Origin: Actinomycetes bacterium | GTDB taxonomy: Bacteria > Actinomycetota > Thermoleophilia > Solirubrobacterales > Solirubrobacteraceae | NCBI GenBank assembly: GCA_021846845.1 | Contig: JAJZWB010000008.1 | Span: 1-45,246 of the forward strand | Direction: 5' to 3' | DNA: 45,246 bases | In this document: piece by piece, positions 10,267 to 41,928 of the stretch | Position numbering within the stretch: position 1 is the stretch's first letter | Layout: the number at the start of each line of letters is the position of its first letter | The notes under the pieces: model-generated | Database searches by the model: none | The model's input: only the letters and a program-made list of their open reading frames with translations | What the model was told of the DNA's origin: nothing | Program-made: the position numbers and the translations under genes

Positions 10267-10526
10267 CGCTCAGCGCACCGGATTGGGGACGCTCAGCGCA
10301 CCGGGTTGGGGGCGCTCAGCACCGGGTTGGGGACGCTCAGCGCACCGGGTTGGGGACGCTCAGCGCACCGGGTTGGGGGCGCTCAGCACCGGGTTGGGGA
10401 CGCTCAGCGCACCGGGTTGGGGACGCTCAGCGCACCGGGTTGGGGACGCTCAGCGCACCGGGTTGGGGACGCTCGGACAGCGCGCCCCGGGGAGCATGCT
10501 CAGCGCGGCGGATGCAGGATGCTCAG
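10267..10526. repeat. Tandem array of about 23-bp units overlapping the formamidase stop codon
   Basis: Nine units with core CGCTCAGCGCACCGGG run from 10267 to 10469. Seven are 23 bp and two (10313, 10380) are 21 bp, lacking a GC. The order 23-21-23 occurs twice, so a block of three units was itself duplicated. Degenerate units continue to 10526, inside the end of the formamidase gene: on the minus strand each unit has CTGAGC, and two of these are the codons CTG AGC of the gene and the CTGAGC holding its stop. The array fills most of the 331-base gap between the formamidase and permease genes (10169-10499), which holds otherwise only the permease promoter and leader. Confidence 0.9.
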
Positions 10527-20075: not shown

Positions 20076-21248
20076 TCAGCCGGCGGTCAGGCGCCGGTAC
20101 GCCTCTGGGTCGGTGGCGCCCTCGGTGCTGATCAGCAGGACCCGTGACGTCTGGTCGAGCGAGAGGCCCTCACCCGCACCGGCGAGCCCCTCGTCGTCGA
20201 CCATGGCCAGCAGCGCCGCCAGCCCGGCGGCGCCGCACTCGCCGGCGACGATCCCGTCCCGGGCCAGAAGCCTGGTCGCCTCCGGGATGAAGGAGTCCGG
20301 CACCGCGAGGTAGAGGTCGATCCCGCGGGAGACGATCGGCCAGGCGACCAGCGACGGGGTCGCGCAGTTGAGCCCGGCCATGACCGACGTCTGGGGATGG
20401 CCGAGCGTGACGATCCGCCCTGCGGCCACCGACTCCAGCACGCACGCCGCCGAGGTCGGCTCCACGCCGACCAGGGCGGGGCGGGGCGCCGGGCGCGACC
20501 AGTAGTGGCCGACGAGCGCGGCGGCCAGGGCGCCGACGCCGATCGGGACCACGACCACGTCCGGTTGCGGTCGGCCTCCGGCCTCGAGCGCCTCGTCGAT
20601 CTCGGCGAAGATCGTGCTGTAGCCCTCGATCACCCACGCCGGCACCTGCTCGTAGCCGGGCCACGACGTGTCGGAGATCACCAGGCAGCGCGGGCCGGCG
20701 TCCCCGGCCGAGCGCTCGACCGCGTCCTCGTAGCCGCCGTCCACGACGGTCACCGCCGCGCCCTCGCCCTCGATCGCCGCGATCCGCGCGGGCACCATGT
20801 CCGCCGGTACGTAGATGTGTGAGTCCAGGCCGAGGAGCGCCGCTATGTGCGCGACCGCGCGCCCGTGATTGCCGTCGGTGGCCGCGGTGAGGGTCAGCGG
20901 ACGGGCTCGGGCCACCTCCGCTCGCAGCCGCTGAAACGACGGGATCTCCTCCAGCGTCGCGCCGAGGTGCGCGACCAGCGCGCGATAGACCGCCCAGGAG
21001 GCGCCCAGCACCTTGAACGACGTCAGTCCCAGGCGCTCGGACTCATCCTTGACCAGCACCTCGCCCACCCCGACCCGCCGCGCCGCCGCCGGTGCGCTGC
21101 GCAGCGGCGTGGCGCGATAGCCGGGCATCGCCGCATGGAACGAGCGTGGGGACACGGACGGAATCGGGACGTCCAGCGACGCCGGCGGATTGGGCTGCGC
21201 GAGCGCGAAGGCGGAGCCGTCGCGTGCCACCAGTCCGGACGCGCTCAC
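20076..21248 (-). CDS. Diaminopropionate ammonia-lyase-like PLP enzyme
   Basis: A fold-type II PLP enzyme (390 aa) that follows the YgeX/DpaL pattern: VKDESERLGLTSFKVLGASW with the Schiff-base lysine in SFKVLG, TAATDGNHGRAVA, IGVGALAAALVG as phosphate/PLP loop, TSVMAGLNCATPS, and the C-terminal LISTEGATDPEAYRR. DpaL converts 2,3-diaminopropionate to pyruvate and two ammonia. In E. coli ygeX lies beside xdh and hyuA genes, similar to the neighbourhood here (Mo-hydroxylase directly upstream, HyuA genes in the island). The start GTG at 21248 lies inside the last unit of a tandem repeat, and residues 2-8 (SASGLVA) are repeat-encoded. Threonine dehydratase-like activity on another amino acid is possible. 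Confidence 0.87.
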   Translation of the reverse strand: MSASGLVARDGSAFALAQPNPPASLDVPIPSVSPRSFHAAMPGYRATPLRSAPAAARRVGVGEVLVKDESERLGLTSFKVLGASWAVYRALVAHLGATLEEIPSFQRLRAEVARARPLTLTAATDGNHGRAVAHIAALLGLDSHIYVPADMVPARIAAIEGEGAAVTVVDGGYEDAVERSAGDAGPRCLVISDTSWPGYEQVPAWVIEGYSTIFAEIDEALEAGGRPQPDVVVVPIGVGALAAALVGHYWSRPAPRPALVGVEPTSAACVLESVAAGRIVTLGHPQTSVMAGLNCATPSLVAWPIVSRGIDLYLAVPDSFIPEATRLLARDGIVAGECGAAGLAALLAMVDDEGLAGAGEGLSLDQTSRVLLISTEGATDPEAYRRLTAG

Positions 21249-21366
21249 GATGCACCGGGCCGGGCGCGCTCACGATGCACCGGGCCGGACGCGCTCACCA
21301 TGCCACCAGGCCGGACGCGCCCACCATGCACCGAGCCGGACGCGCTCACGATGCCACCGAGCCGCT
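21227..21366. repeat. Tandem array of about 25-bp units spanning the hydroxylase stop and lyase start
   Basis: On the minus strand units with core GTGAGCGCGTCCGG start at 21248, 21273, 21298, 21323 (degenerate, GTGGGC) and 21349, so spacing is 25-26 bp. The first contains the lyase GTG start and the last contains the stop of the large hydroxylase subunit (TGA at 21348-21346). The tail motif GTGGCA is shared by the ends of both genes. Each intact unit holds a GTGA, the same stop/start overlap found at other junctions of this operon. Confidence 0.9.
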
Positions 21367-23685
21367 CGCGCCTCGCGCCGCCTGGAGCGCGTCGAGCAGC
21401 CGCTCCGGAGTCATCGGCAGCCTTTGGAGGCGTACGCCGACCGCGTCCTGGATGGCGCTCGCCAGCGCGGGAGCCGATGGCCCGATCGGCGGCTCGCCGA
21501 TCCCCCTGGCGCCGAGCGGTCCCTTGCCCGGGTGCAGCTCCAGCCCGATCGCGCGGATGTCGGGCAGGTCGACGGAGCTCGGGATCAGGTACTCGGCGAA
21601 CAGCGTCGAGCTGGGCACGCCGTCGACGAGCTCGACGTCCTCGCTCAGCGCGTAGCCGACGCCCTGCGCCACCGCGCCCTGGATCTGCCCCTCGACGCGC
21701 TGCATGCTGATCGCCCGCCCGACGTCGTGGCAGGCCACGTACTTGAGGACCCTCACCTGCCCGGTCGACTCGTCGACCTCCACCTCGGCCGCGTGCGCCC
21801 CGTGGGTGTAGTCCGGGAACGAGCGTCCCCGCCCGGTCTCCCTGTCGAACTCCCCGGTCTCGGCCTCGAAGGTCTCGTGGACGTAGGGCATCACGCCCTG
21901 GTGCTCTGCCGCCTGGGCCACCTCGGCCATCGTGAGCGAGCGATCGCCCACCGAGACCCGGTTGTCCTCGAAGCTCAGCTGCGCCGGCTCGCACTCCAGC
22001 AGGGCGGCCGCCACCGGCTCCAGCTTCGAGCGCAGCGAACGGGCCACCTTGAGCACCGCGTTGCCCGACATGTAGAGCTGCCGGGTGGCGAAGGTGCCCC
22101 CGGTCAGCGGGGTCAGGGCACTGTCGCCGATGTGGACCGAGGTCCGGTCGACGGTGACGCCGAGGATCTCCCCGGCGATGTTCGCCAGCGATGCCGCCTG
22201 TCCGGCGCCGAGGTCGGTGACGCCCGCCCGGATGACCATCGTGCCGTCCTGCTCGAGCCCGATCCAGGCCGAGGCGCGATCGGCGAAGAACACCGAGCGT
22301 CCGTAGGGCTGCATGCTGCAGGCGAAGCCGCGGCCGATCCTGGAATGCGGCCCGCTCGGCCGGGAGGGCGGTCCGAGCTCCGCCAGCACCCGCTCCATGC
22401 ACTCGCCGACGCCGACGCCGGTGTCGATGGGCTCCCCGGTCACGCGCAGGTCGCCGCGCTGCACGAAGTTGCGCCGACGCACCTCGGCTGGGTCGAGCCC
22501 CAGCAGCTCGGCGATCCGGTCCATCTGCGACTCGTAGCCGAACACGACCTGCATCGCGCCAAACCCGCGGAACGCGCTGGTGGGCACGTTGTTGGTGAAC
22601 ACGGCGGTGCTCTCCACGCGCGCGTCCTGCACCCGGTAGGGGCCGGTCGCGTTCACCGTGGCGGCGAACAGCACGCGCGAGCTGAGCAGCGGGTAGGCGC
22701 CGGCGTCGCCGACGATCCTCACGTCCTGGGCGACGATCGTGCCGTCCCGCCTGACGCCGGTCCGGTAGCGCATCGTGAACGGGTGGCGCTTGTAGCGGGC
22801 CAGGAGCGACTCCTGCCGGGTCCAGACCATGCGCACCGGGCGGCGCGTCCTCCACACCAGCAGCGCGAGGAACGGCTCGATTGTCATGTCCTCCTTGCCG
22901 CCGAAGCCGCCTCCCATGTAGGAGGCGATCACCCGCACGCGGCTGTGCGGCAGCTTGAGGATCTCCGCGATCTCCCTCGCGTGCTCGATCACCTGGGTCG
23001 AGACGCGCAGGGTCAGAACGCCGTCGGAGTCGATCCAGCCGATCCCGGCCTCCGGCTCCAGGTACGCGTGGTCGACGCGCTGGCTGCGATAGGTCTCCTC
23101 CACGACCAGATCCGCAGACCGCATCGCAGCATCGACATCTCCGATCGAGGAGCGCCAGTCGACGTAGCGGTTGCCGCCCGCATGGATGGCGGGCGCATCG
23201 TCGCGCAGCGCCTCCTCGGGGTCGAACACGCCCGGCAGCTCCTCGTACTCGACGTCGACCAGCCCGGCGGCCTCGAGCGCCGCGCCGGGCGTCTCCGCGG
23301 CGATCACCGCGACAGGCTCCCCGTCGTAGCGCACGCGATCGGCGGCCAGCACCGGCTGCTGGATCGCGTCCACGCCCAGGCCGCTGGCCTCGTCGTGGAT
23401 CCCGTTGTGCGGAACGTCGGCCGCGGTCAGCACGGCGCGCACGCCCGGAACCGCGCGTGCCGCGCTCGTGTCGATAGCCACGATCCGCGCGGACGGCAGC
23501 TGGGCGCGCACCACGACCCCGTGCAGCATCCCGGGGAAGCCCCAGTCGTCGGCATAGGGCAGCGTTCCCGCGACCTTCTCGACGAAGTCGCGGTGGTGAA
23601 CGGGCGCGCCGCGCCGCGAGGCGTCAGGCGACGCCTGCTCGGGCGCCACGATCGTCGCGTCGCGATCGGCGATCTCAGTCGACAA
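21346..23685 (-). CDS. Xanthine dehydrogenase-type molybdenum hydroxylase, large subunit
   Basis: Molybdopterin-binding subunit (779 aa) of a three-subunit XDH-family hydroxylase. It has MGGGFGGKE (Mo-pterin contact), TSAFRGFGAMQ, the GVTDLGAGQAASLANIA block and the C-terminal GARGIGEPPIGP carrying the catalytic glutamate next to molybdenum. Enzymes of this family insert water oxygen into N-heterocycles or aldehydes. The loop lacks the cysteine motif of form I CO dehydrogenase (VAYRCSFR), so CO oxidation is unlikely. The start is TTG at 23685: GGAGG lies six bases upstream, and it overlaps the small-subunit gene by 11 bases. The 3' end runs into a tandem repeat, so the tail GASGSVAS may be repeat-derived. 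Confidence 0.93.
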   Translation of the reverse strand: MSTEIADRDATIVAPEQASPDASRRGAPVHHRDFVEKVAGTLPYADDWGFPGMLHGVVVRAQLPSARIVAIDTSAARAVPGVRAVLTAADVPHNGIHDEASGLGVDAIQQPVLAADRVRYDGEPVAVIAAETPGAALEAAGLVDVEYEELPGVFDPEEALRDDAPAIHAGGNRYVDWRSSIGDVDAAMRSADLVVEETYRSQRVDHAYLEPEAGIGWIDSDGVLTLRVSTQVIEHAREIAEILKLPHSRVRVIASYMGGGFGGKEDMTIEPFLALLVWRTRRPVRMVWTRQESLLARYKRHPFTMRYRTGVRRDGTIVAQDVRIVGDAGAYPLLSSRVLFAATVNATGPYRVQDARVESTAVFTNNVPTSAFRGFGAMQVVFGYESQMDRIAELLGLDPAEVRRRNFVQRGDLRVTGEPIDTGVGVGECMERVLAELGPPSRPSGPHSRIGRGFACSMQPYGRSVFFADRASAWIGLEQDGTMVIRAGVTDLGAGQAASLANIAGEILGVTVDRTSVHIGDSALTPLTGGTFATRQLYMSGNAVLKVARSLRSKLEPVAAALLECEPAQLSFEDNRVSVGDRSLTMAEVAQAAEHQGVMPYVHETFEAETGEFDRETGRGRSFPDYTHGAHAAEVEVDESTGQVRVLKYVACHDVGRAISMQRVEGQIQGAVAQGVGYALSEDVELVDGVPSSTLFAEYLIPSSVDLPDIRAIGLELHPGKGPLGARGIGEPPIGPSAPALASAIQDAVGVRLQRLPMTPERLLDALQAARGASGSVAS

Positions 23686-24163
23686 CCGACACCTCCTGGC
23701 GTGCGTCCCGGTACGCCTCGATGGCGTCCAGGATCTTCGTGTAACCGGTGCAGCGGCAGAAGTTGCCCGACAGCGCCGACCTCAGCTCCTCACGATCCGC
23801 TCGCGGATGCCGGTCCAGATACCACTTGGCCGTCAGCAGCATCCCCGGCGTGCAGAACCCGCACTGCGAGCCGGCATGCGTGAGAAAGGCCTCCTGCAGC
23901 GGGTGGAGCTCCCCCTCCGCCGCCAGTCCGCGGACCGTCGTCACCGCCCGCCCGTCGACCTGGACAGCGAACGTGAGGCACGAGTTGACCGGCTCGCCGT
24001 CGAGCAGGACCGTGCACGTGCCGCAGACGCCCTCGCCGCAGCCCAGCTTGACCTCCAGTCCTCCGGCCTCGGTGCGCAGCAGCTCCAGCAGCGACATGTT
24101 CGGGTCGACCGTCGCGCTCACCGGGCGGCCGTTGACCTCAAGGGCGATCTCGTGCTTGCTCAT
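23675..24163 (-). CDS. Xanthine dehydrogenase-type hydroxylase, [2Fe-2S] subunit
   Basis: This 162-residue iron-sulfur subunit carries the plant-ferredoxin cluster (LGCGEGVCGTCTVLLDG then NSC, about residues 40-62) and the alpha-helical cluster domain (QCGFCTPGM and GNFCRCTGY). All eight cysteines are present, so both clusters should assemble. It passes electrons from the molybdenum site to the FAD subunit. ATG at 24163 overlaps the FAD-subunit stop (ATGA). Gene order FAD-FeS-Mo is common in actinobacterial hydroxylases of this class. Confidence 0.95.
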   Translation of the reverse strand: MSKHEIALEVNGRPVSATVDPNMSLLELLRTEAGGLEVKLGCGEGVCGTCTVLLDGEPVNSCLTFAVQVDGRAVTTVRGLAAEGELHPLQEAFLTHAGSQCGFCTPGMLLTAKWYLDRHPRADREELRSALSGNFCRCTGYTKILDAIEAYRDARQEVSVVD

Positions 24164-25744: not shown

Positions 25745-26724
25745 CAGGCCTCCGTCACGGTCGAGGCCTGCGGCGCCTGCCCGGCGCCTTCCCCGGGCCG
25801 CGATCCGTTGGCCCCGGCTTCGGGCGCGGCCGGCGGCAGCGGTGGAAGCTCCAGCAGGTCCAGCGGGTTGCGCTTGATCATCAGGTCCACGTCCTGCTCG
25901 CTGATCCCCGACTCGTAGACCGACTGCGCGAACGTCCGCAGGCACTCGGCCGGCATCGGGTTGTGGCGCTGGCCCGCGTCGCTCATCAGGATGCAGCGCT
26001 CGGCGCCGAGCGTCTTGATCGCCTCGACCTGCCGCGCCAGCGCAGCGTGGTTCCACATCGGGGAGACCGTGCAGTAGCCGAACTCCGCGTAGGCGCCCTG
26101 ATCGACGAGCTCCCTGAGGTCGTCGATCTCGAGCTGCGGAACCCGGAAGAACGGGTGGGTGATCATGATCTTCTCCACCCCGCGCTCGCGGGCGGTCCTG
26201 ACCAGGAGCTTGATCTCCCGGACCGAGAGGTGACAGGTGCTCAGGATGGCGGAGTGCTGGGCGGTGATGTCCAGCACGTCCATCAGGCCCTCTATCGGCT
26301 TGCCCGCCTCGTCGAAGACCTCGATGCCGGTGTCCGCCGACTTGGCGACGGTGCTCGCCTGCTTGTCGTACTTCCCCGTCGACCCGAACGTGCGCGCGTG
26401 GTTGGCCGCGTCGACGGTCGGCATCCACACGTGCTTGCCGCCCAGCTCCAGCGCGGCCTCGACGGCGGCCGGGTTGATCCCGCCCACAGCCCGGTTGAGC
26501 ACGATGCCCCCGACGACGTGGATGCCCGGAACCTGCTGCATCGTCATGTACGCGCGGCTCGTGGTCCGCTCCGAGTGGCACTTCAGCGAGATCGCCCGCA
26601 GTCCCATCGCCGCGGCGTGCCGCGCGACTCCGACATCGTCGGCGATCCGCGGGAACAGATCAGGCTCGGAATGGAGGTGCACATCCACCGCGCCTCGCAT
26701 GTCGATGAATGGGCCGATGGTCAT
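25744..26724 (-). CDS. Amidohydrolase-like metal-dependent hydrolase (DUF6282 type)
   Basis: This 326-residue protein begins with DVHLHSEPD (metal-binding HxH after strand 1, about residues 14-22). It continues with a lysine/cysteine/histidine segment (SLKCHSE), MITHPFF and MSDAGQRHNP with a late Asp, the layout of a TIM-barrel metal hydrolase. I match it to the DUF6282 family, whose reaction is not established as far as I know. The C-terminal 35 residues are Pro/Gly/Ala-rich and probably disordered. The ATG at 26724 overlaps the CoA-transferase beta stop as ATGA. In this pathway it might open a lactam or imidazolone ring (an imidazolonepropionase-like role), but that is conjecture. Confidence 0.72.
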   Translation of the reverse strand: MTIGPFIDMRGAVDVHLHSEPDLFPRIADDVGVARHAAAMGLRAISLKCHSERTTSRAYMTMQQVPGIHVVGGIVLNRAVGGINPAAVEAALELGGKHVWMPTVDAANHARTFGSTGKYDKQASTVAKSADTGIEVFDEAGKPIEGLMDVLDITAQHSAILSTCHLSVREIKLLVRTARERGVEKIMITHPFFRVPQLEIDDLRELVDQGAYAEFGYCTVSPMWNHAALARQVEAIKTLGAERCILMSDAGQRHNPMPAECLRTFAQSVYESGISEQDVDLMIKRNPLDLLELPPLPPAAPEAGANGSRPGEGAGQAPQASTVTEA

Positions 26725-27515
26725 GGGGCAGAAGTCACCTTTCTCGTTTCCGGTACATCAGTTGGATCGCCATCGCGAAGGCGGCGCAGCTCCTGGAGCT
26801 CCTGCTGCGTGGGCGGCGCCAGCTCGTCGATCGCGTCAGACACGAGCAGCTCGAATCCGGTGTTGGCCTGGACCTGCTGCTGCGTGACGCCGGGCTGCAG
26901 CGCGTCCAGCCGCAGGCGGCCGGTCTCCTCGTCGAAGCCCAGCAGCGCGAGATCGGTCACGACCGCCACCGGGCGATTGCGCACCAGGCCCGCGCTCCGC
27001 CGCGCCTCCGGGCCGGTCAGGTAGCCGGGGCTGGTGATGAAGTCGACGCGCTCCACGAACCGCCGCGGCTCGTGCCGGGTCATGATCATCACCTCGCGGC
27101 AGCTGGAGACGATGTCGTTCGCGCCGCCGCTCCCGGGCAGCCTCACCTTCGGCCGGTCGGGGTCTCCGATGAAGCTGGTGTTGACGTTGCCGTACTGGTC
27201 CAGCTGCCCGGCGCCGATGAAGCCATAGTCGTAGTGGCCCCGCTGCCCGTAGAGGAACAGGTCGTTGATCGAGGTCAGCATCGACGCGTGGTGCGCGGCG
27301 CGCATCTCGTTGGTCGACACGGGGAGACGGCCCGGCAGCATCCGGGGGCCGATCGAGCCGCCCTCCAGCACGATCGTCAGGCCCGGCGCGTGCAGGCGCT
27401 TGGCGAGCACGCTTGCCTCAAGCGGCGCGCCGACGCCCGCGAACACCACGCGTCCGTCGCGAAGCAGGCGACTGCCCGCGATCGTCATCAGCTCGACCGG
27501 CGTCGCGTCACTCAC
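26721..27515 (-). CDS. CoA-transferase subunit beta
   Basis: Beta chain (264 aa) of a two-subunit family I CoA-transferase or related hydrolase. It has FAGVGAPLEASVLAKRLHAP, the LEGGSIGPRML loop where the family's catalytic glutamate lies, and GAGQLDQYGNVNTSFIGDP followed by RLPGSGGANDI. The GTG at 27515 overlaps the alpha-subunit stop (GTGA). The pair resembles glutaconate CoA-transferase GctAB and IpdAB-like proteins more than the SCO-A type. It would activate a dicarboxylic or oxo-acid product of the pathway as a CoA thioester; the acid is unknown. Confidence 0.87.
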   Translation of the reverse strand: MSDATPVELMTIAGSRLLRDGRVVFAGVGAPLEASVLAKRLHAPGLTIVLEGGSIGPRMLPGRLPVSTNEMRAAHHASMLTSINDLFLYGQRGHYDYGFIGAGQLDQYGNVNTSFIGDPDRPKVRLPGSGGANDIVSSCREVMIMTRHEPRRFVERVDFITSPGYLTGPEARRSAGLVRNRPVAVVTDLALLGFDEETGRLRLDALQPGVTQQQVQANTGFELLVSDAIDELAPPTQQELQELRRLRDGDPTDVPETRKVTSAP

Positions 27516-28417
27516 GCCGCCACCAGCTCTCTCGCCCGCCGGGTCTGCTCCAGCAGCCGCGTCGCACCCACCTTGTCGAGGAAGCCCGCGAAGCTGCCCG
27601 GCCCGTCGACGTTCTCCCGCAGGTAGGCCTGCACGCCCTCGACCCCGTCTCGCTCGACGAGCTCCGCGTACGCGTCGAAGTGGTCGAAGTCCGCCTCGTA
27701 GCGCCCGTGGCACTCGTGCGGGTAGGAGCCGAACGGAACCTCGACGACAGCGTCCACGACGAACCCCGGGATCGCGGTGCGATCGGCGGTCCGGACGATC
27801 TCGTCGGGGGACACGATCTCCTCGGCCGTGACGATCACGGTCTCGGCCGCCCGCGCGAACTCGACATCCATGTAAACGGGGCCGTCGATCTGCGCGTTGC
27901 CCGCGGGGTCGGCCCGCTGCACGTGGATCAGCGCGACGTCGGGCACCAGCGCCGGCACGGCGACGAGCTTCTGATCGGTGAACGGGCAGCGCATCTCGAC
28001 CGCCGGCGTTCGCTCCAGCAGATCGGATCCGAGCATCGACGCCGTCGGCAGGAACGGCATGCCCATCGATCCGGCGAGCAGGCGAAGGCCGAACGACAGG
28101 TGGCTCCACTCCTCGTAGATCGCCGGGTCGCGCTCGACATACTCGCGGAACACCTTCGGAATGCCCCACTTCAGTCCGATGCCGACCCAGCTGGCCACCA
28201 GCTTGGTCGCAGCCCCGGATGCCAGGAACAGCTCCGACTCGTAGCACATCAGGTTGCGTGCCAGCGTCAGGTCCCGGCGCTCGGCGCGCAGCAGCTCCAG
28301 CAGCATCGCCCACGGAGTGCGCGAATAGCAGCACCCGCCGGCCACGAGCGTGTCGCCGTCGCGAACGAGCGCGGACGCCTCGGCCAGCGACATCCGCTTG
28401 TCGGTCGCGTCGGTCAT
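27512..28417 (-). CDS. CoA-transferase subunit alpha
   Basis: Alpha chain (301 aa), with VRDGDTLVAGGCCYSRTPWA near the N terminus, the CoA-binding glycine loop, and the IHVQRADPAGNAQIDGP block followed by VTAEEIVSPDEI, all as in GctA-like subunits. ATG at 28417 overlaps the LLM oxidoreductase stop as ATGA. Alpha and beta are separate genes joined by a GTGA overlap, so stoichiometric synthesis is expected. Acyl substrate unknown; neighbouring LLM and Mo-hydroxylase genes suggest a late step of ring breakdown. Confidence 0.87.
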   Translation of the reverse strand: MTDATDKRMSLAEASALVRDGDTLVAGGCCYSRTPWAMLLELLRAERRDLTLARNLMCYESELFLASGAATKLVASWVGIGLKWGIPKVFREYVERDPAIYEEWSHLSFGLRLLAGSMGMPFLPTASMLGSDLLERTPAVEMRCPFTDQKLVAVPALVPDVALIHVQRADPAGNAQIDGPVYMDVEFARAAETVIVTAEEIVSPDEIVRTADRTAIPGFVVDAVVEVPFGSYPHECHGRYEADFDHFDAYAELVERDGVEGVQAYLRENVDGPGSFAGFLDKVGATRLLEQTRRARELVAA

Positions 28418-29382
28418 CGCGTCGCGGAGACCTGGATGCCGGAGACCAGCGGCATGACCTCGGCGGCGAAGCGCTCCACCTGCTCCAGGTCGTAGTTGTA
28501 GGGAACCAGGCAGATGTGGCGCACGCCGGCCTCGGCCTGCGCGGCGATCTGCTCCGCGCACTGCTCCGGTGTGCCGCGGATCGCGCTCTCGGCCGTCGAT
28601 TCGCTCCACTCGGGCAGATCGAAGTAGGTGCCGATGTACTCCCTGGCGCGGCGGTCGGCAGCCTCGAACGAGTCGTCGATGCACAGCGGCAGCTGGGCGA
28701 CGTTGCCAAGCTCGTCGGGGTCCCTGCCGGCGCGCTCGGCATGCTCCCTGATCCGGCTCCAGGCGGAGGCGAACGCCGGCGGCTCGTAGAAGTAGGTCAG
28801 CCAGCCGTCGGACTTCTCGGCGACCCGCTGCAGGACCTTGTCCACGTAGCCGCCGATCAGCAGCCGGGGGCGGGGACGCGGTGAGGTCTTGGGAAGCATC
28901 ACGGCGTTGCGGAACGGAACCCCGCCGGCCTCGCCGCTGACGCGCTCGCCGGACCAGAACAGCTTCATCAGCTCGAGGTTCTCCTCGAAGATCCGCCCCC
29001 GCTTCCTGAACGGCACGCCGCAGGCGTCGAACTCACGCTCGTACCAGCCGACGGCCATGCCGAGCGTCAGCCGCCCGCGAGAGATGATCTCGATCGTCGC
29101 CGCGGTCTTGGCCAGCACGGCGGCGCGCCTCAGCGGCAGCACGAGGATCCCGGTGCCGAGCTCGACGCGCTCGGTCTGCCCCGCGAGCAGGGCCAGCGTG
29201 GAGAGCGACTCCAGGAACGGGAACGGCTTGCCGCTGCCCAGGAACATGTGGTCCCAGGCCCACAGCGAATCGAAGCCGAGCTGCTCGGCACGCCGAGCGT
29301 AGGCGACGATCGCACCGACATCCGGGTCGTGCGACGCCGGCGTGAAGTTCTCGAGCGCGAGCCCGAATTTCAGTTTGCTCAT
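28414..29382 (-). CDS. LLM-class flavin/F420-dependent oxidoreductase
   Basis: A luciferase-like monooxygenase-fold protein of 322 aa. It has FGLALENFTPASHDP at the N terminus, the WAWDHMFLG strand, GTGILVLPLRRAAVLAK and GRLTLGMAVGWYEREFDACG, which are the conserved cofactor and barrel segments of actinobacterial F420-dependent members. These enzymes perform hydride transfer with F420 or oxygenation with FMNH2, and the sequence does not separate the two options with certainty. ATG at 29382 overlaps the GntR stop (ATGA), so the regulator and enzyme are on one transcript. Confidence 0.88.
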   Translation of the reverse strand: MSKLKFGLALENFTPASHDPDVGAIVAYARRAEQLGFDSLWAWDHMFLGSGKPFPFLESLSTLALLAGQTERVELGTGILVLPLRRAAVLAKTAATIEIISRGRLTLGMAVGWYEREFDACGVPFRKRGRIFEENLELMKLFWSGERVSGEAGGVPFRNAVMLPKTSPRPRPRLLIGGYVDKVLQRVAEKSDGWLTYFYEPPAFASAWSRIREHAERAGRDPDELGNVAQLPLCIDDSFEAADRRAREYIGTYFDLPEWSESTAESAIRGTPEQCAEQIAAQAEAGVRHICLVPYNYDLEQVERFAAEVMPLVSGIQVSATR

Positions 29383-31370: not shown

Positions 31371-31446
31371 CCGGTCGGGTGTCGCGAGACCGGTCAGGCG
31401 TCGTGAGACCGGTCAGGCGTCGTGAGACCGGTCAGGCGTCGTGAGG
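31371..31446. repeat. Four 19-bp repeats that include the stop codon of the 2-hydroxyacid dehydrogenase
   Basis: On the minus strand the unit CACGACGCCTGACCGG is found at 31428-31446 (within and just past the gene), 31409-31427 and 31390-31408, with a degenerate fourth at 31371-31389. Codons CAC GAC GCC TGA at the gene's end (HDA-stop) are the first copy, so the stop codon is present three times in a row at 19-base spacing. Confidence 0.92.
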
Positions 31447-32484
31447 CGGCCGAGGCAGGCCGGCGATCCCGTTCACGACATCCAGCGGCTCGCCTCCGCG
31501 CAGGACACGGCCCAGGTTCTGCAGCGTCCGTCGGATCATCCTCTCGCGGGCCTCGTTGGTCGAGCCCGCCAGGTGCGGCGAGAGCAGCACGTTCGAGCGG
31601 CCCCTGAGCGGGCTCTGCGGCCCTGGCGGCTCCTGCTCGAACACGTCGAGCGCCGCACCCCTCAGGCGCCCCGCGTCCAGCGCGTCCGCCAGAGCGCGCT
31701 CGTCGAGAACCGCACCGCGCGCGACGTTGATCAGCACGGCGCCCGGCCGGAGCCTCGCGATCCGCCCGGCGTCGAACAGCGATCGCGTCGACCGCGTCAG
31801 CGGAAGGTGCAGGCTCACCACATCGCTCGCCGCGCAGAGCTCGTCGAGGCCCGCGCGCTCGACGCCGAGCCGGCGCTCGACCTCGTCGCCCGCCGGGACC
31901 GGGTCGAAGTAGAGCACGCGTCCGGGCTCGAAGCCGGCCAGACGCGCCGCCACCGCCCGGCCGATCGCGCCGAAGCCCACGATCCCGACCGTCCGGCCCC
32001 CGAGCTCGTACACGCCCGACCTCGCGGCCTGCACCATCTCCCAGCGACCGGCCTGCACCCCCTCGTGGTGGCGCCAGGCGTCCTTGAGGAGCACGAGCAT
32101 CGCCATCACGGTCCATTCCGCCACGGCGCGCGCGTTCTCTCCCGGGCAGTTGGCGACCGCGATCCCGAGCTCCGCCGCACGTCGCAGGTCGATCGTCTCG
32201 GTCCCGGAGGTCGGCTGGAAGATCGCTCGGCATCGAACCGCCAGCTCGAGCATCGACGCGTCCAGGCCGAGCCGGTGGGTCCAGTCCCCGACCACATAGT
32301 CGGCGTCGGGCAGGGCACGACGCAGGTCGGCCGTCGCCTCCGGCACCGTCAGCGAGTGCGGCGCCAGCACGCCGGCCAGCTCCCGGTGTGCCGGCCCAAG
32401 CACCTCGGCAGGCGTCAGCGAGAGGACGTTGGGCAGCTTCGGCGCCGGACTGGCGGGGCCGCGCTCGGCGCCGCCGTCAGCCAT
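31432..32484 (-). CDS. D-isomer-specific 2-hydroxyacid dehydrogenase family protein
   Basis: A 350-residue NAD-dependent dehydrogenase with the GIVGFGAIGRAVAARLAGF Rossmann motif, catalytic Arg in NVARGAVLDERAL, Glu in LDVFEQEPPG and His in LLSPHLAGSTNEA, so the catalytic triad is complete. It resembles phosphoglycerate or glyoxylate/hydroxypyruvate reductase relatives without the ACT domain of full SerA. ATG at 32484 lies in the last unit of a repeated ATG-containing array and has no Shine-Dalgarno. The last codons are also in a tandem array, so both ends of this gene are made of repeats. It may interconvert a 2-oxo and a 2-hydroxy acid of the pathway. Confidence 0.88.
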   Translation of the reverse strand: MADGGAERGPASPAPKLPNVLSLTPAEVLGPAHRELAGVLAPHSLTVPEATADLRRALPDADYVVGDWTHRLGLDASMLELAVRCRAIFQPTSGTETIDLRRAAELGIAVANCPGENARAVAEWTVMAMLVLLKDAWRHHEGVQAGRWEMVQAARSGVYELGGRTVGIVGFGAIGRAVAARLAGFEPGRVLYFDPVPAGDEVERRLGVERAGLDELCAASDVVSLHLPLTRSTRSLFDAGRIARLRPGAVLINVARGAVLDERALADALDAGRLRGAALDVFEQEPPGPQSPLRGRSNVLLSPHLAGSTNEARERMIRRTLQNLGRVLRGGEPLDVVNGIAGLPRPPHDA

Positions 32485-32609
32485 CCGCGCCGCCGCCGTC
32501 GGTCATCCGCGCCGCCGTCGTCGGTCATCCGCGCGGCCGTCGTCGGTCATCCGCGCCGCCGCCGTCGACCATCCGCGGCCTCGTCAGCCATCCGCGGCTT
32601 CGAGCGCAT
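32482..32609. repeat. ATG-containing 22-bp tandem array at the start of the 2-hydroxyacid dehydrogenase
   Basis: On the minus strand ATGs occur at 32484 (gene start), 32506, 32528, 32550, 32572 and 32591, so spacing is 22, 22, 22, 22 and 19, with a weaker seventh near 32609. The core is GGATGACCGACGACGG. Upstream copies read ATGA, containing both a start and a stop. Since 22 is not a multiple of three, each upstream ATG opens a short frame that mostly ends in a later unit. Confidence 0.92.
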
Positions 32610-33452: not shown

Positions 33453-33597
33453 TCCATGCGGCGCACGGGCGCGAGCCCCCTACCCTGCACCGCACGCCAG
33501 CAGGAGCCCTCCCCATGCGGCGCACGGGCGCGAGCCCCCTACCCTGCACCGCACGCCAGCAGGAGCCCTCCCCATGCGGCGCACGGGCGCGAGCCCC
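33453..33597. repeat. 59-bp direct repeats (about 2.5 copies) between convergent genes
   Basis: The motif CCATGCGGCGCACGGGCG recurs with its ATG at 33456, 33515 and 33574, exactly 59 bases apart. The copies are nearly identical over the full unit, the last being partial. The array lies in the 245-base gap between the DUF1989 gene and the NADH pyrophosphatase gene, where no gene is seen. The longest frames across it are low-complexity products of the repeat. Confidence 0.9.
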
Positions 33598-37811: not shown

Positions 37812-37979
37812 GTCGATCCCTCCGCTCTCCGGCGGCCCCTGCGGCCGGCTGATGCGGGCCCGGGCGCCCGCCGACGCCTCGATCCGCGAGGCGCTGCGCC
37901 CAATCTAGCGAGCCGCCGGGGTCGGCCCTTGAACTTCTCGTTAACCGCCGGCTCGATGCTCCGCGGTCGCCAGACCGGG

Positions 37980-38284
37980 GCGTCAAACCCGCCCGGGCGT
38001 CAGACCCGACCCGGGGCGTCAACCGGCCCGTGGCGTCAAACCCGACCCGGGGCGTCAACAGGCCCGGGCGTCAAACCCGACCCCGGGCGTCAAACCCGAC
38101 CCCGGGCGTCAAACCCGACCCCGGGCGTCAGACCCGACCCGGGGCGTCAAACCCGCCCGGGCGTCAGACCCGACCCGGGGCGTCAAACCCGCCCGGGCGT
38201 CAGACCCGACCCGGGGCGTCAACCGGCCCGTGGCGTCAAACCCGACCCGGGGCGTCAACAGGCCCGGGCGTCGAACCCGGCCCA
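37980..38284. repeat. Tandem array of 17 units of 16-19 bp
   Basis: All units start GCGTC, with main form GCGTCAAACCCGACCC plus GGG or CGG, and variants of 16 and 17 bp. The five-unit series at 37980-38067 recurs at 38180-38267, so a block was duplicated after the array formed. On the minus strand nearly every unit contains TGACGC. The array lies in the 553-base gap between the MMPL start and the NADP oxidoreductase stop (37812-38364). I see no gene in that gap, and frames across it are repeat products. Confidence 0.93.
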
Positions 38285-38364
38285 GGGGCCCCGGGCCAAC
38301 GGGGCACCGGCCTGCCAATGCTGTTGCACCCGGCCCGATCAGCAGTGCCGCACGCGGCGACGGC

Positions 38365-39434: not shown

Positions 39435-39836
39435 GTGGCGCGCACCCCGCTCACCGACGCCGGCCAGCTCTCCGCCTCGGACGTGATCCACGTCCGCTTC
39501 AGCGCGCTGCCGGCGCGCTGCACCGTAGGTGAGGTCCGCGCCTGGTTCGGCGAGAGCACGCACCGCCGGATGGCGTTCCTCGCCGACGGCGATCGCTACG
39601 CCGGCTCGATCCCGCTTGAGGCGCTCGACGGCGCCGACGACGATCAGCCCGCGACGGCGGTCGCGCTGAGTGGCCCGACGGTCGCGCCCGGCTCGAGCGC
39701 GCGCGAGGGCTACGAGCTGGCGATCCTGACCGACGCCAACCGAGTGCCCGTCGTCGACGCGACCGGCCGGCTGGTCGGCGTCATCGGGGTCACCGAGGAC
39801 CGAGCCGCTTTCTGCGGCGCAACACCACGAACGTGA
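39435..39836 (+). CDS. CBS-domain protein
   Basis: This 133-residue protein shows a degenerate CBS pair: HRRMAFLADGDRYAGSIPLEAL in the first half, and RVPVVDATGRLVGVIGVTED with the typical beta-strand and Asp/Gly turn in the second. CBS pairs bind adenine nucleotides and gate channels or enzymes. It precedes the CLC gene by 19 bases in the same direction and may regulate that transporter or an unrelated partner. GTG at 39435 is chosen for the -10 box seven bases before it and for the full first strand. Confidence 0.75.
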   Translation: MARTPLTDAGQLSASDVIHVRFSALPARCTVGEVRAWFGESTHRRMAFLADGDRYAGSIPLEALDGADDDQPATAVALSGPTVAPGSSAREGYELAILTDANRVPVVDATGRLVGVIGVTEDRAAFCGATPRT

Positions 39837-39855
39837 CCGGCGGACCCACCTCGCG

Positions 39856-41928
39856 ATGAGCGCGCTCGCCCAGGGCACGCGCTCGCTCGGAGCGCGTGCC
39901 GGCGGGTGGGTGCGCCGCGCCGGCTATCTGCAGAAATGGCTCGTGCTGGGCGCCGCGATCGGCGTGATCGCGGGTCTCGGCGCGGTCGCGTTCTACGAGG
40001 CGCTGCAGGCCGCCACCCACTTCCTGCTGGGCACGATCGGGGGCTATGTGCCTCCCTCGCCCGTCGGCGAGGGAGGCGGGAAGGGCACCGGGCACTTCAC
40101 ACGGGCGTGGGCGATCCCGCTGATCGCCGCGCTCGGCGGCCTCGTCTCGGGAGCGCTCGTGTTCCGCTTCGCGCCCGAGGCCGAGGGCCACGGCACGGAC
40201 GCCGCGATCGATGCCGTCCACCGCAACCCGCGCGGCGTGCGCTCGCGGGTCGTGTTCATCAAGCTGGTCGCGTCGGCGCTGACGATCGGCTCCGGCGGCT
40301 CCGGCGGCCGGGAGGGGCCGACCGCCCAGATCTCGGCCGGCTTCGGCTCGCTGCTGGCCCGCCGGCTTGACCTCTCGCCTGAGGACGGCCGGATCGCCGT
40401 CTCGGTCGGGATCGGGTCGGGGATCGGCGCGATCTTCGGCGCCCCGCTTGGCGGCGCCGTCCTGGCCGCGGACATCGTCTACCGAGACGACTTCGAGATC
40501 GAGGCGCTGATCCCCGGGCTGATCGCCTCGATCATCGGCTACACGGTCTTCGGCCTGATCGAGAACTTCTCGCCGCTGTTCGGCTACGCAGCCTCCGGCT
40601 ACCAGTTCCACGAGCCGCTGCAGCTGCTCTGGTTCGCGGTGATCGGCCTCGTGGCGGGGTTCGTCGGGCTTCTCTACGCCAGGAGCTTCTATGGCGTGAC
40701 CGCCCTGTCCAAACGCCTGCCGGGATCGCGGATGGTCAAGCCCGCGGTCGGCGGGCTGCTGGTCGGCCTGTTGGCGCTCGCGCTGCCCGGCGTGCTCGGC
40801 ACCGGCTACGGCTGGCTGCAGGAGTCGCTGTCGCGCTCGGACCTCATGTCCCTCTCGCTGGCGACCGTGCTGCTGCTGCCGGCGGCCAAGATCCTCGCGA
40901 CCTCGCTGTCGATCGGGACGGGCGGCTCGGGCGGGATCTTCGGGCCCGGGATGGTGATCGGCGCCTTCGTCGGCGCCGCCGTCTGGAGGCTGCTGGAGCC
41001 GTTCGCCGGCAGCGTGCCCCACAGCCCCGCGCCGTTCGTGATCGTCGGGATGATGGCCTGCTTCGGCTCGATCGCCCGGGCGCCGCTGGCGGTGATGCTG
41101 ATGGTGGCGGAGATGACCGGGAGCCTGACGATCCTGGCGCCAGCGATGGTCGCCGTCGGCCTCGCCTACCTGATCGTCCACCGCAGCGGGCAGACCATCT
41201 ACCGCAGCCAGCTGCGCAGCCGTGCCGAGTCGCAGGCCGCCCGCCTGGTCCTCGGGCTGCCGCTGCTGGCGCGGATCCGCGTCTCCGACACGGCGGTGCC
41301 CGCCCGCGTGGTGCTCACCGACTCCGAGATCGCCGGCGAGGCGCTCGCACGCCTTCGCGAGGCGGCCGTGCCGGGCGCGCCCGTCGTGGACGCACGCGGG
41401 CGGTTCATCGGCGCCGTCTCGCGCGACGCCCTGTCCGAGTCGGTGCTGGCCGGTCACGAGGACCACCCGGTCGGCAGGCTCGCCGACGAGACCACCCCGA
41501 CGGTAACCGCGCAGGCGACGCTTGAGGAAGCGCTCGACGCGCTTCCCGCCGGACATCGCTGGCTGACGGTGATCGACGACGACCGCCGCGTGGCGGGCAT
41601 CCTCGGCGTGCGCGAGATCGTGCGCAGCTACCGAGGCACCGTGCAGGCCGACGCGCAGCGGATCCTCAGCGTCTCGGACGACGCCGGGATCGCCGAGGTG
41701 ACGGTCGGCGACCGGTCGCCGCTGCGAGACTCGACGATCGCGGAGGGACCGATCCCCGACGGCGTGATCGTCACCTCGCTGCAGCGTGGCGAGGTCTCGC
41801 TTCCGGTCGACGGCCACACGCAGCTTCAGGCGGGCGACGTGCTCACGCTGCTAGCTCCCAGGGATCGCCTGGGAGCGGCACGGGACCTGGTCGAGGGTCC
41901 CGTGGTCGCGGCGCACCGGCAGGCTTGA
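39856..41928 (+). CDS. CLC-family chloride transporter with CBS pair and RCK-C/TrkA-C domain
   Basis: This 690-residue protein is a membrane CLC domain (about 25-450) followed by a CBS pair (about 470-590) and a TrkA-C-like end (about 620-680). Selectivity motifs are present: GSGGSGGREGPT (gating Glu in REGPT), GTGGSGGIFGPG and the EMTGS helix. The residue corresponding to the proton glutamate of E. coli ClcA (E203, after APLAGILFIIEE) is Ile here (APLGGAVLAADI), so it may be a passive channel or use another proton path. ATG at 39856. The cytosolic domains suggest ligand control by nucleotides. Confidence 0.92.
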   Translation: MSALAQGTRSLGARAGGWVRRAGYLQKWLVLGAAIGVIAGLGAVAFYEALQAATHFLLGTIGGYVPPSPVGEGGGKGTGHFTRAWAIPLIAALGGLVSGALVFRFAPEAEGHGTDAAIDAVHRNPRGVRSRVVFIKLVASALTIGSGGSGGREGPTAQISAGFGSLLARRLDLSPEDGRIAVSVGIGSGIGAIFGAPLGGAVLAADIVYRDDFEIEALIPGLIASIIGYTVFGLIENFSPLFGYAASGYQFHEPLQLLWFAVIGLVAGFVGLLYARSFYGVTALSKRLPGSRMVKPAVGGLLVGLLALALPGVLGTGYGWLQESLSRSDLMSLSLATVLLLPAAKILATSLSIGTGGSGGIFGPGMVIGAFVGAAVWRLLEPFAGSVPHSPAPFVIVGMMACFGSIARAPLAVMLMVAEMTGSLTILAPAMVAVGLAYLIVHRSGQTIYRSQLRSRAESQAARLVLGLPLLARIRVSDTAVPARVVLTDSEIAGEALARLREAAVPGAPVVDARGRFIGAVSRDALSESVLAGHEDHPVGRLADETTPTVTAQATLEEALDALPAGHRWLTVIDDDRRVAGILGVREIVRSYRGTVQADAQRILSVSDDAGIAEVTVGDRSPLRDSTIAEGPIPDGVIVTSLQRGEVSLPVDGHTQLQAGDVLTLLAPRDRLGAARDLVEGPVVAAHRQA

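Follow-up and report, generated by a model that had tools for sequence, protein, structure and literature searches.

Reporter work has shown that reinitiation by a terminating ribosome is almost lost when the gap to the next start is about 20-38 nucleotides (nt), and that the final 15 nt of the gene ahead are enough for it (PMC10666635). The open reading frame (ORF) carried by the mycobacterial interspersed repetitive unit (MIRU) is joined at a -4 spacing in operon junctions, and where PMC12548453 touches on the matter, citing Supply 1997, the insertion is thought to pass with little effect on expression. Here we analyse a stretch of 45,246 nt (the window) from a soil actinobacterium of the Solirubrobacterales, in which a tandem array joins two operon genes on the minus strand, a molybdenum hydroxylase gene and an ammonia-lyase gene. 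The array is genuine, and what it repeats is the stop/start junction of the two genes. We think it probable, though well short of certain, that an NTGA stop/start overlap was amplified here, that a short relay frame running through the copies keeps the two genes coupled, and that selection filters insertions of this kind at operon junctions.

The array between the hydroxylase and lyase genes

Tandem Repeats Finder (TRF) places the array at 21228-21354, with a period of 25, 5.0 copies, 87% matches and a score of 182. In 40 surrogates of the entire 45-kb window, drawn from a first-order Markov model, the best score was 82. Head-to-tail copies beyond chance are what marks a tandem repeat or minisatellite, and the array has them. 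An earlier reading of the DNA by a model without database searches (the sequence-only reading) had placed the hydroxylase TGA and the lyase GTG in copies of one unit, repeated in tandem about five times, and this is what was found, the stop lying in copy 1 and the start in copy 5. The features are as follows.

21346..23685, minus strand: upstream gene, molybdenum hydroxylase large subunit, XdhA/PucD-like (NCBIfam PucD, 2.3e-159, below cut-off)
20076..21248, minus strand: downstream gene, pyridoxal phosphate-dependent ammonia-lyase of the diaminopropionate ammonia-lyase family (NCBIfam PRK08206, 345.8 bits, above the cut-off of 276)
21228..21375, minus strand: stop/start junction repeated in tandem, as five copies of 25/26 bp and, within the end of the hydroxylase and the start of the lyase, partial copies (TRF, unit table)
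21346..21349, minus strand: GTGA of copy 1, where the hydroxylase TGA (21346-21348) and the opening GTG of the relay overlap
21245..21248, minus strand: GTGA of copy 5, in which the lyase GTG (21246-21248) is overlapped by the relay TGA (21245-21247); this start agrees with relatives
21245..21349, minus strand: predicted relay micro-ORF of 34 codons (VSASGSVHGGRVRPGGMVSASGPVHRERARPGAS) plus TGA, with a 4-nt overlap with the gene at each end (open frame ending at 21245, stop-to-start walk)

On the minus strand the copies start at 21349, 21324, 21298, 21273 and 21248, the distances from copy to copy being 25, 26, 25 and 25, or 101 bp in sum. The hydroxylase stop is read at 21348-21346 and the lyase start at 21248-21246, and 97 bases lie between them, not the 98 given previously. 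GTGAGC or GTGGGC is repeated at all five copy starts; TGA is present in four of the five, copy 2 having GTGGGC. One spot varies among the units, reading either GGTGGCAT or GGTGCAT. Its longer form is found at the hydroxylase end, in copy 2 and at the lyase start, which makes it likely that the ancestral unit was of 26 bp and that three single-base losses followed. The C-terminal stretch of the hydroxylase is ...GGCTCGGTGGCATCGTGA, and the N-terminal stretch of the lyase is GTGAGCGCGTCCGGACTGGTGGCA.

At this junction of the window the real stop and the real start do not overlap directly, and only the relay frame makes an overlap. The hydroxylase stop is overlapped by the GTG of copy 1, which opens a frame of 34 codons; the TGA that closes this frame overlaps the lyase GTG in turn, and both 4-nt overlaps are thereby kept. 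The frame holds because the insertion (101) is 2 mod 3. The starts and stops in between had been described as decoys. Since the first GTG and the last TGA share a frame and form a bridge of 34 codons, they are not only that.

We infer from the sequence that the relay is translated. A ribosome ending at copy 1 would reinitiate on the overlapping GTG, translate the 34-codon relay peptide (in itself of no importance), terminate at the TGA of copy 5 and then reinitiate on the lyase GTG. Each 25-bp unit would supply enough upstream context for reinitiation. Coupling would thus be kept in two local steps, where a plain 97-nt spacer should, on the reporter results (PMC10666635), uncouple the lyase.

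Elsewhere in the same operon there are 4-nt overlaps at 24160-24163, 26721-26724, 27512-27515, 28414-28417 and 29379-29382. The other junctions of this operon had been described as GTGA or ATGA overlaps; most are indeed of 4 nt, but one is of 1 nt, one is of 11 nt and there are a few short gaps.

Origin of the array and comparison with other junctions

The nearest genomes with the same hydroxylase-lyase order are G022 and G018, from the same genus, whose lyases have 79% and 76% identity, respectively, to the lyase of the window. Their junctions (...GCATCATGAGCACC and ...GTGTCATGAGCACC) are both direct ATGA overlaps, stop and start sharing four bases, with no array. The hydroxylase tails (LQAARGASGSVAS, LRQARADSAAAAS and LREARVDSPAVS) and the lyase beginnings (MSASGLVARDGSAFALAQP and MSTAVKVLPGGAAVALAQP) are of the same or nearly the same length. 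Given these equal protein ends and the direct overlap in the relatives, the window differs from them by a clean 101-bp insertion that copies the junction. The sequence-only reading had suggested that an ancestral GTGA overlap was amplified, and that the junction be aligned in relatives. The alignment supports such a history, as neither relative has an array or an unrelated long spacer, except that the overlap in both is ATGA and not GTGA. The array would have arisen in situ, by tandem amplification of an NTGA overlap that the ancestor had between stop and start. Both proteins are left unchanged by it, because each unit holds the hydroxylase end, the overlap and the lyase beginning, the first copy keeping the stop and the last keeping the start.

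The window case is not isolated. The sample of its own genome (the home genome, a draft assembly) covers 1.38 of 3.68 Mb; hut and nuo gene names rest on the protein sequences themselves and gcv names are from Pfam. When stop and start contexts were compared without bias, in all registers over 452 same-strand gaps, seven pairs reached an identity of 25/34 or more. The exact NTGA register is kept in five of them, namely the window, hutU/hutI, amine oxidase/DUF1365, nuoM/nuoN and the locus L069. Tandem copies at hutU/hutI, nuoM/nuoN and the two further junctions collapse to NTGA overlaps. There is an open relay in four of the five, and an in-frame extension from the old start in the fifth. The four besides the window are listed here.

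hutU/hutI (L060): two extra 41-bp units (82 in total), giving two 14-codon relays in series
Amine oxidase/DUF1365 (L104): 36 bp, 0 mod 3; the old overlapping start stays in frame, giving an in-frame extension and no relay
nuoM/nuoN: 44 bp, 15-codon relay
L069: 68 bp, 23-codon relay

For L069 no relative was found within the genus. A 22-bp array before nadC (L175) was excluded as ambiguous, as NadC probably starts at a later ATG. It had been argued that the relay is pure chance, because neither insertion total, 82 at L060 or 36 at L104, equals 2 mod 3. This was dropped: the former consists of two 41-bp relays and the latter keeps the old start in frame.

Junctions that carry a relay in the home genome usually have, in relatives, either a direct overlap or an independently made relay. 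The hutU/hutI overlap is direct in G011 (GTGA) and G019 (ATGA); nuoM/nuoN is a direct NTGA overlap in most genomes, and the DUF1365 junction in many. At nuoM/nuoN, G022 has two extra 26-bp ATGA units and a relay of 9+9 codons; its near relative G023, with almost the same sequence, has one copy and a direct overlap. The nuoL/nuoM gaps of three relatives, of 17, 11 and 14, are all bridged (6, 4 and 5 codons), and there are relays of 13 codons at gcvH/gcvPA in G004 and of 12 codons at gcvPA/gcvPB in G013. The home genome carries relays at all four of these junctions (nuoL/nuoM, nuoM/nuoN, gcvH/gcvPA and gcvPA/gcvPB), where most other genomes have a direct overlap. Outside the home genome, gapped NTGA stops at these four junctions are bridged in 6/6 cases and broken in none. 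The nuo and gcv relays are insertions and not cut-off protein ends, because the neighbouring proteins keep their full length on both sides. The amplification history also holds at other home junctions and, independently, at nuoM/nuoN of G022.

Some further arrays and relays were noted. The home nuo operon (L061:8348-16220) has five junctions with relays of 7, 17, 13, 15 and 15 codons, with a 4-nt overlap at both ends, and at L161:9916-10027 two genes are separated by an array of 27-bp units with CGATGA, where the overlap is bridged in two steps of 10 and 27 codons. The DUF1365 junction of G022 (L141) has an independent array of 27 bp x 5 at a GTGA junction, in frame, with a repetitive N-terminal extension and several alternative in-frame GTG starts. 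The hutU/hutI junction of the same genome (L115) has a spacer of about 560 nt with short tandem arrays of several kinds, at a place where the overlap of close relatives is direct or nearly so. Within the window, 39833-39859 on the plus strand is a possible second relay: the gene that ends at 39836 has its stop overlapped by the GTG of an 8-codon frame (VTGGPTSR), whose TGA overlaps an ATG at 39856. A 2-hydroxyacid dehydrogenase-like gene (31432-32484) has a different array at each end (31371-31445 and 32469-32596), the stop codon falling within 19-bp repeats and the ATG within 22-bp repeats, the latter array holding several ATGs. An array of 23 bp x 9 (10267-10500) follows the gene ending at 10500, its diverged copies starting at the stop of that gene (TGAGC...). 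Intergenic arrays lie at 33454-33597 (59 bp x 2.4, 100% identical) and 37975-38289 (19 bp x 17).

Frame statistics and rival explanations

Same-strand pairs in the home sample with an NTGA stop and an NTGA start 9-150 nt apart have offsets mod 3 (classes 0, 1 and 2) of 7/3/33 (p 9e-9). With other upstream stops the distribution is flat, at 25/27/27. The three class-1 exceptions are themselves bridged in two steps. Errors in calling starts cannot create this bias, because the frame relation of two genes is independent of the start called. When all starts are counted, 33/100 gaps after an NTGA stop are bridged, compared to 13/112 after a CTGA stop in the same frame (Fisher p 2e-4), and the claim that every NTGA...NTGA gap is bridged is weakened to that extent. 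Since relays are commoner than chance in the home genome and in relatives, selection to keep coupling probably filters the junction insertions that survive. A wider proposal is that relay micro-ORFs are the general selected state of operon junctions in this genus. DNA inserted into an NTGA overlap, through local tandem duplication or by another route, would then survive only with a short frame that has an NTGA overlap at each end, and chains of micro-ORFs would pass ribosomes across gaps at which coupling would otherwise be broken, as at the five home nuo junctions. We consider this wider proposal about as likely to be true as not.

A number of points weigh against amplification followed by a selected relay. 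A single array gains a relay frame by chance about 1 time in 3 or more, and therefore the window alone proves nothing. Genes in the home sample were called by a home-made codon-usage model, and the gene starts come from the same caller. Clear tandem duplication is seen in only 3/28 one-step relays (offset at least 25) and in none of the other 25 (permutation p 0.35). Because these 25 carry no such signal, tandem duplication was rejected as the source of every relay. Shine-Dalgarno-like motifs are equally common at relay starts (12/33) and at direct overlaps (54/128), which leaves room for independent initiation genome-wide. There is no significant bridging excess in the samples of G012, Rhodococcus (pRHL1), Nonomuraea and Neorhizobium, and the relay excess is therefore confined, so far, to those members of this genus that are rich in arrays. 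Nonomuraea has 9.1 arrays per 100 kb, yet shows no clear relay excess.

The strongest rival is a neutral minisatellite, in which the overlap was amplified, coupling was lost, the lyase initiates alone and the 34-codon frame would have arisen by accident from a length of 101, which equals 2 mod 3. The home genome is rich in minisatellites, with 174 strong tandem arrays in the 1.38 Mb (12.6 per 100 kb), where G012, a complete genome from this genus, has 1.5 per 100 kb; one insertion in three would obtain this frame by chance, and amplification of a junction is silent for the proteins whatever the unit length. Such an accident does not account well for the genome-wide offset bias of 33 to 3 or for the 6/6 bridged gaps in relatives, and no GGAG, GAGG or AGGA motif is present in the array ahead of the lyase GTG. 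We regard neutrality as unlikely, while giving it appreciable weight.

Arrays of this kind often vary in copy number. The unit is mostly 25 (1 mod 3), and gain or loss of one would break or alter the relay, so the array could act as a switch that moves in and out of the relay frame and makes lyase translation vary between cells. The copies have diverged (87% matches), which suggests slow turnover, and at other junctions there are units of 2 mod 3 that look stable. We consider a length-variable switch improbable.

Insertion of a dispersed MIRU-like repeat into an NTGA junction would resemble the MIRUs described as inserting at start codons, with a unit ORF coupled at -4 spacing (PMC12548453). 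It was rejected, and we give it hardly any credence, as a search of the 3.68-Mb genome that allowed 3 mismatches found the unit in this array alone and the relay sequences of separate loci do not match one another. An assembly artefact or wrong gene starts can be dismissed with similar firmness: the home genome is a draft of 219 contigs, but the copies are imperfect and distinct, the period is divisible by three in 64/64 arrays inside genes, as real selected DNA would have it (arrays outside genes are not so restricted), relatives bear out the lyase start and the hydroxylase end, and the frame relation of the two genes is independent of the start chosen.

Relation to known coupling systems and repeats

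If amplification with a selected relay is the right explanation, it shows how overlapping operon genes can separate without losing coupling, by duplicating the overlap, with frames that still connect at most unit lengths. It predicts a large class of unannotated micro-ORFs, of about 4-37 codons, whose sole role would be to pass ribosomes on. It would also make the debate between scanning and local reinitiation testable on natural sequences, as free scanning after termination would leave the frame bias unneeded. A search confined to the open literature (subscription papers lay outside it) showed no paper in which the overlap itself is described as locally duplicated, and none that describes a frame bias of this sort across a genome.

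The 4-nt overlap is the commonest same-strand spacing in the home sample (128/743 pairs). Each copy of the junction except copy 2 is an NTGA overlap of the kind used in 4-nt termination-reinitiation coupling, and the relatives have exactly that arrangement; the difference is that here two serial overlaps flank a micro-ORF, and the real stop and start are 97 nt apart. The role proposed for the 34-codon frame is like that of the short upstream ORFs that deliver ribosomes in bicistronic designs and mycobacterial short ORFs, but here the short ORF would be entered by coupling from the upstream gene and not by its own initiation. The imperfect tandem 25-bp units resemble bacterial minisatellites, or variable number tandem repeats, from which the array differs in being placed exactly over a stop/start overlap. 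MIRU is likewise a short repeat of operon junctions whose unit ORF is set at -4 spacing, and the 34-codon frame has GTGA at both ends. MIRU, however, is a dispersed mobile family, whereas the unit here is local, different at every locus and confined to a single array in the genome. By analogy, MIRU coupling at -4 would be the same solution as the relay, and MIRU is its nearest known analogue.
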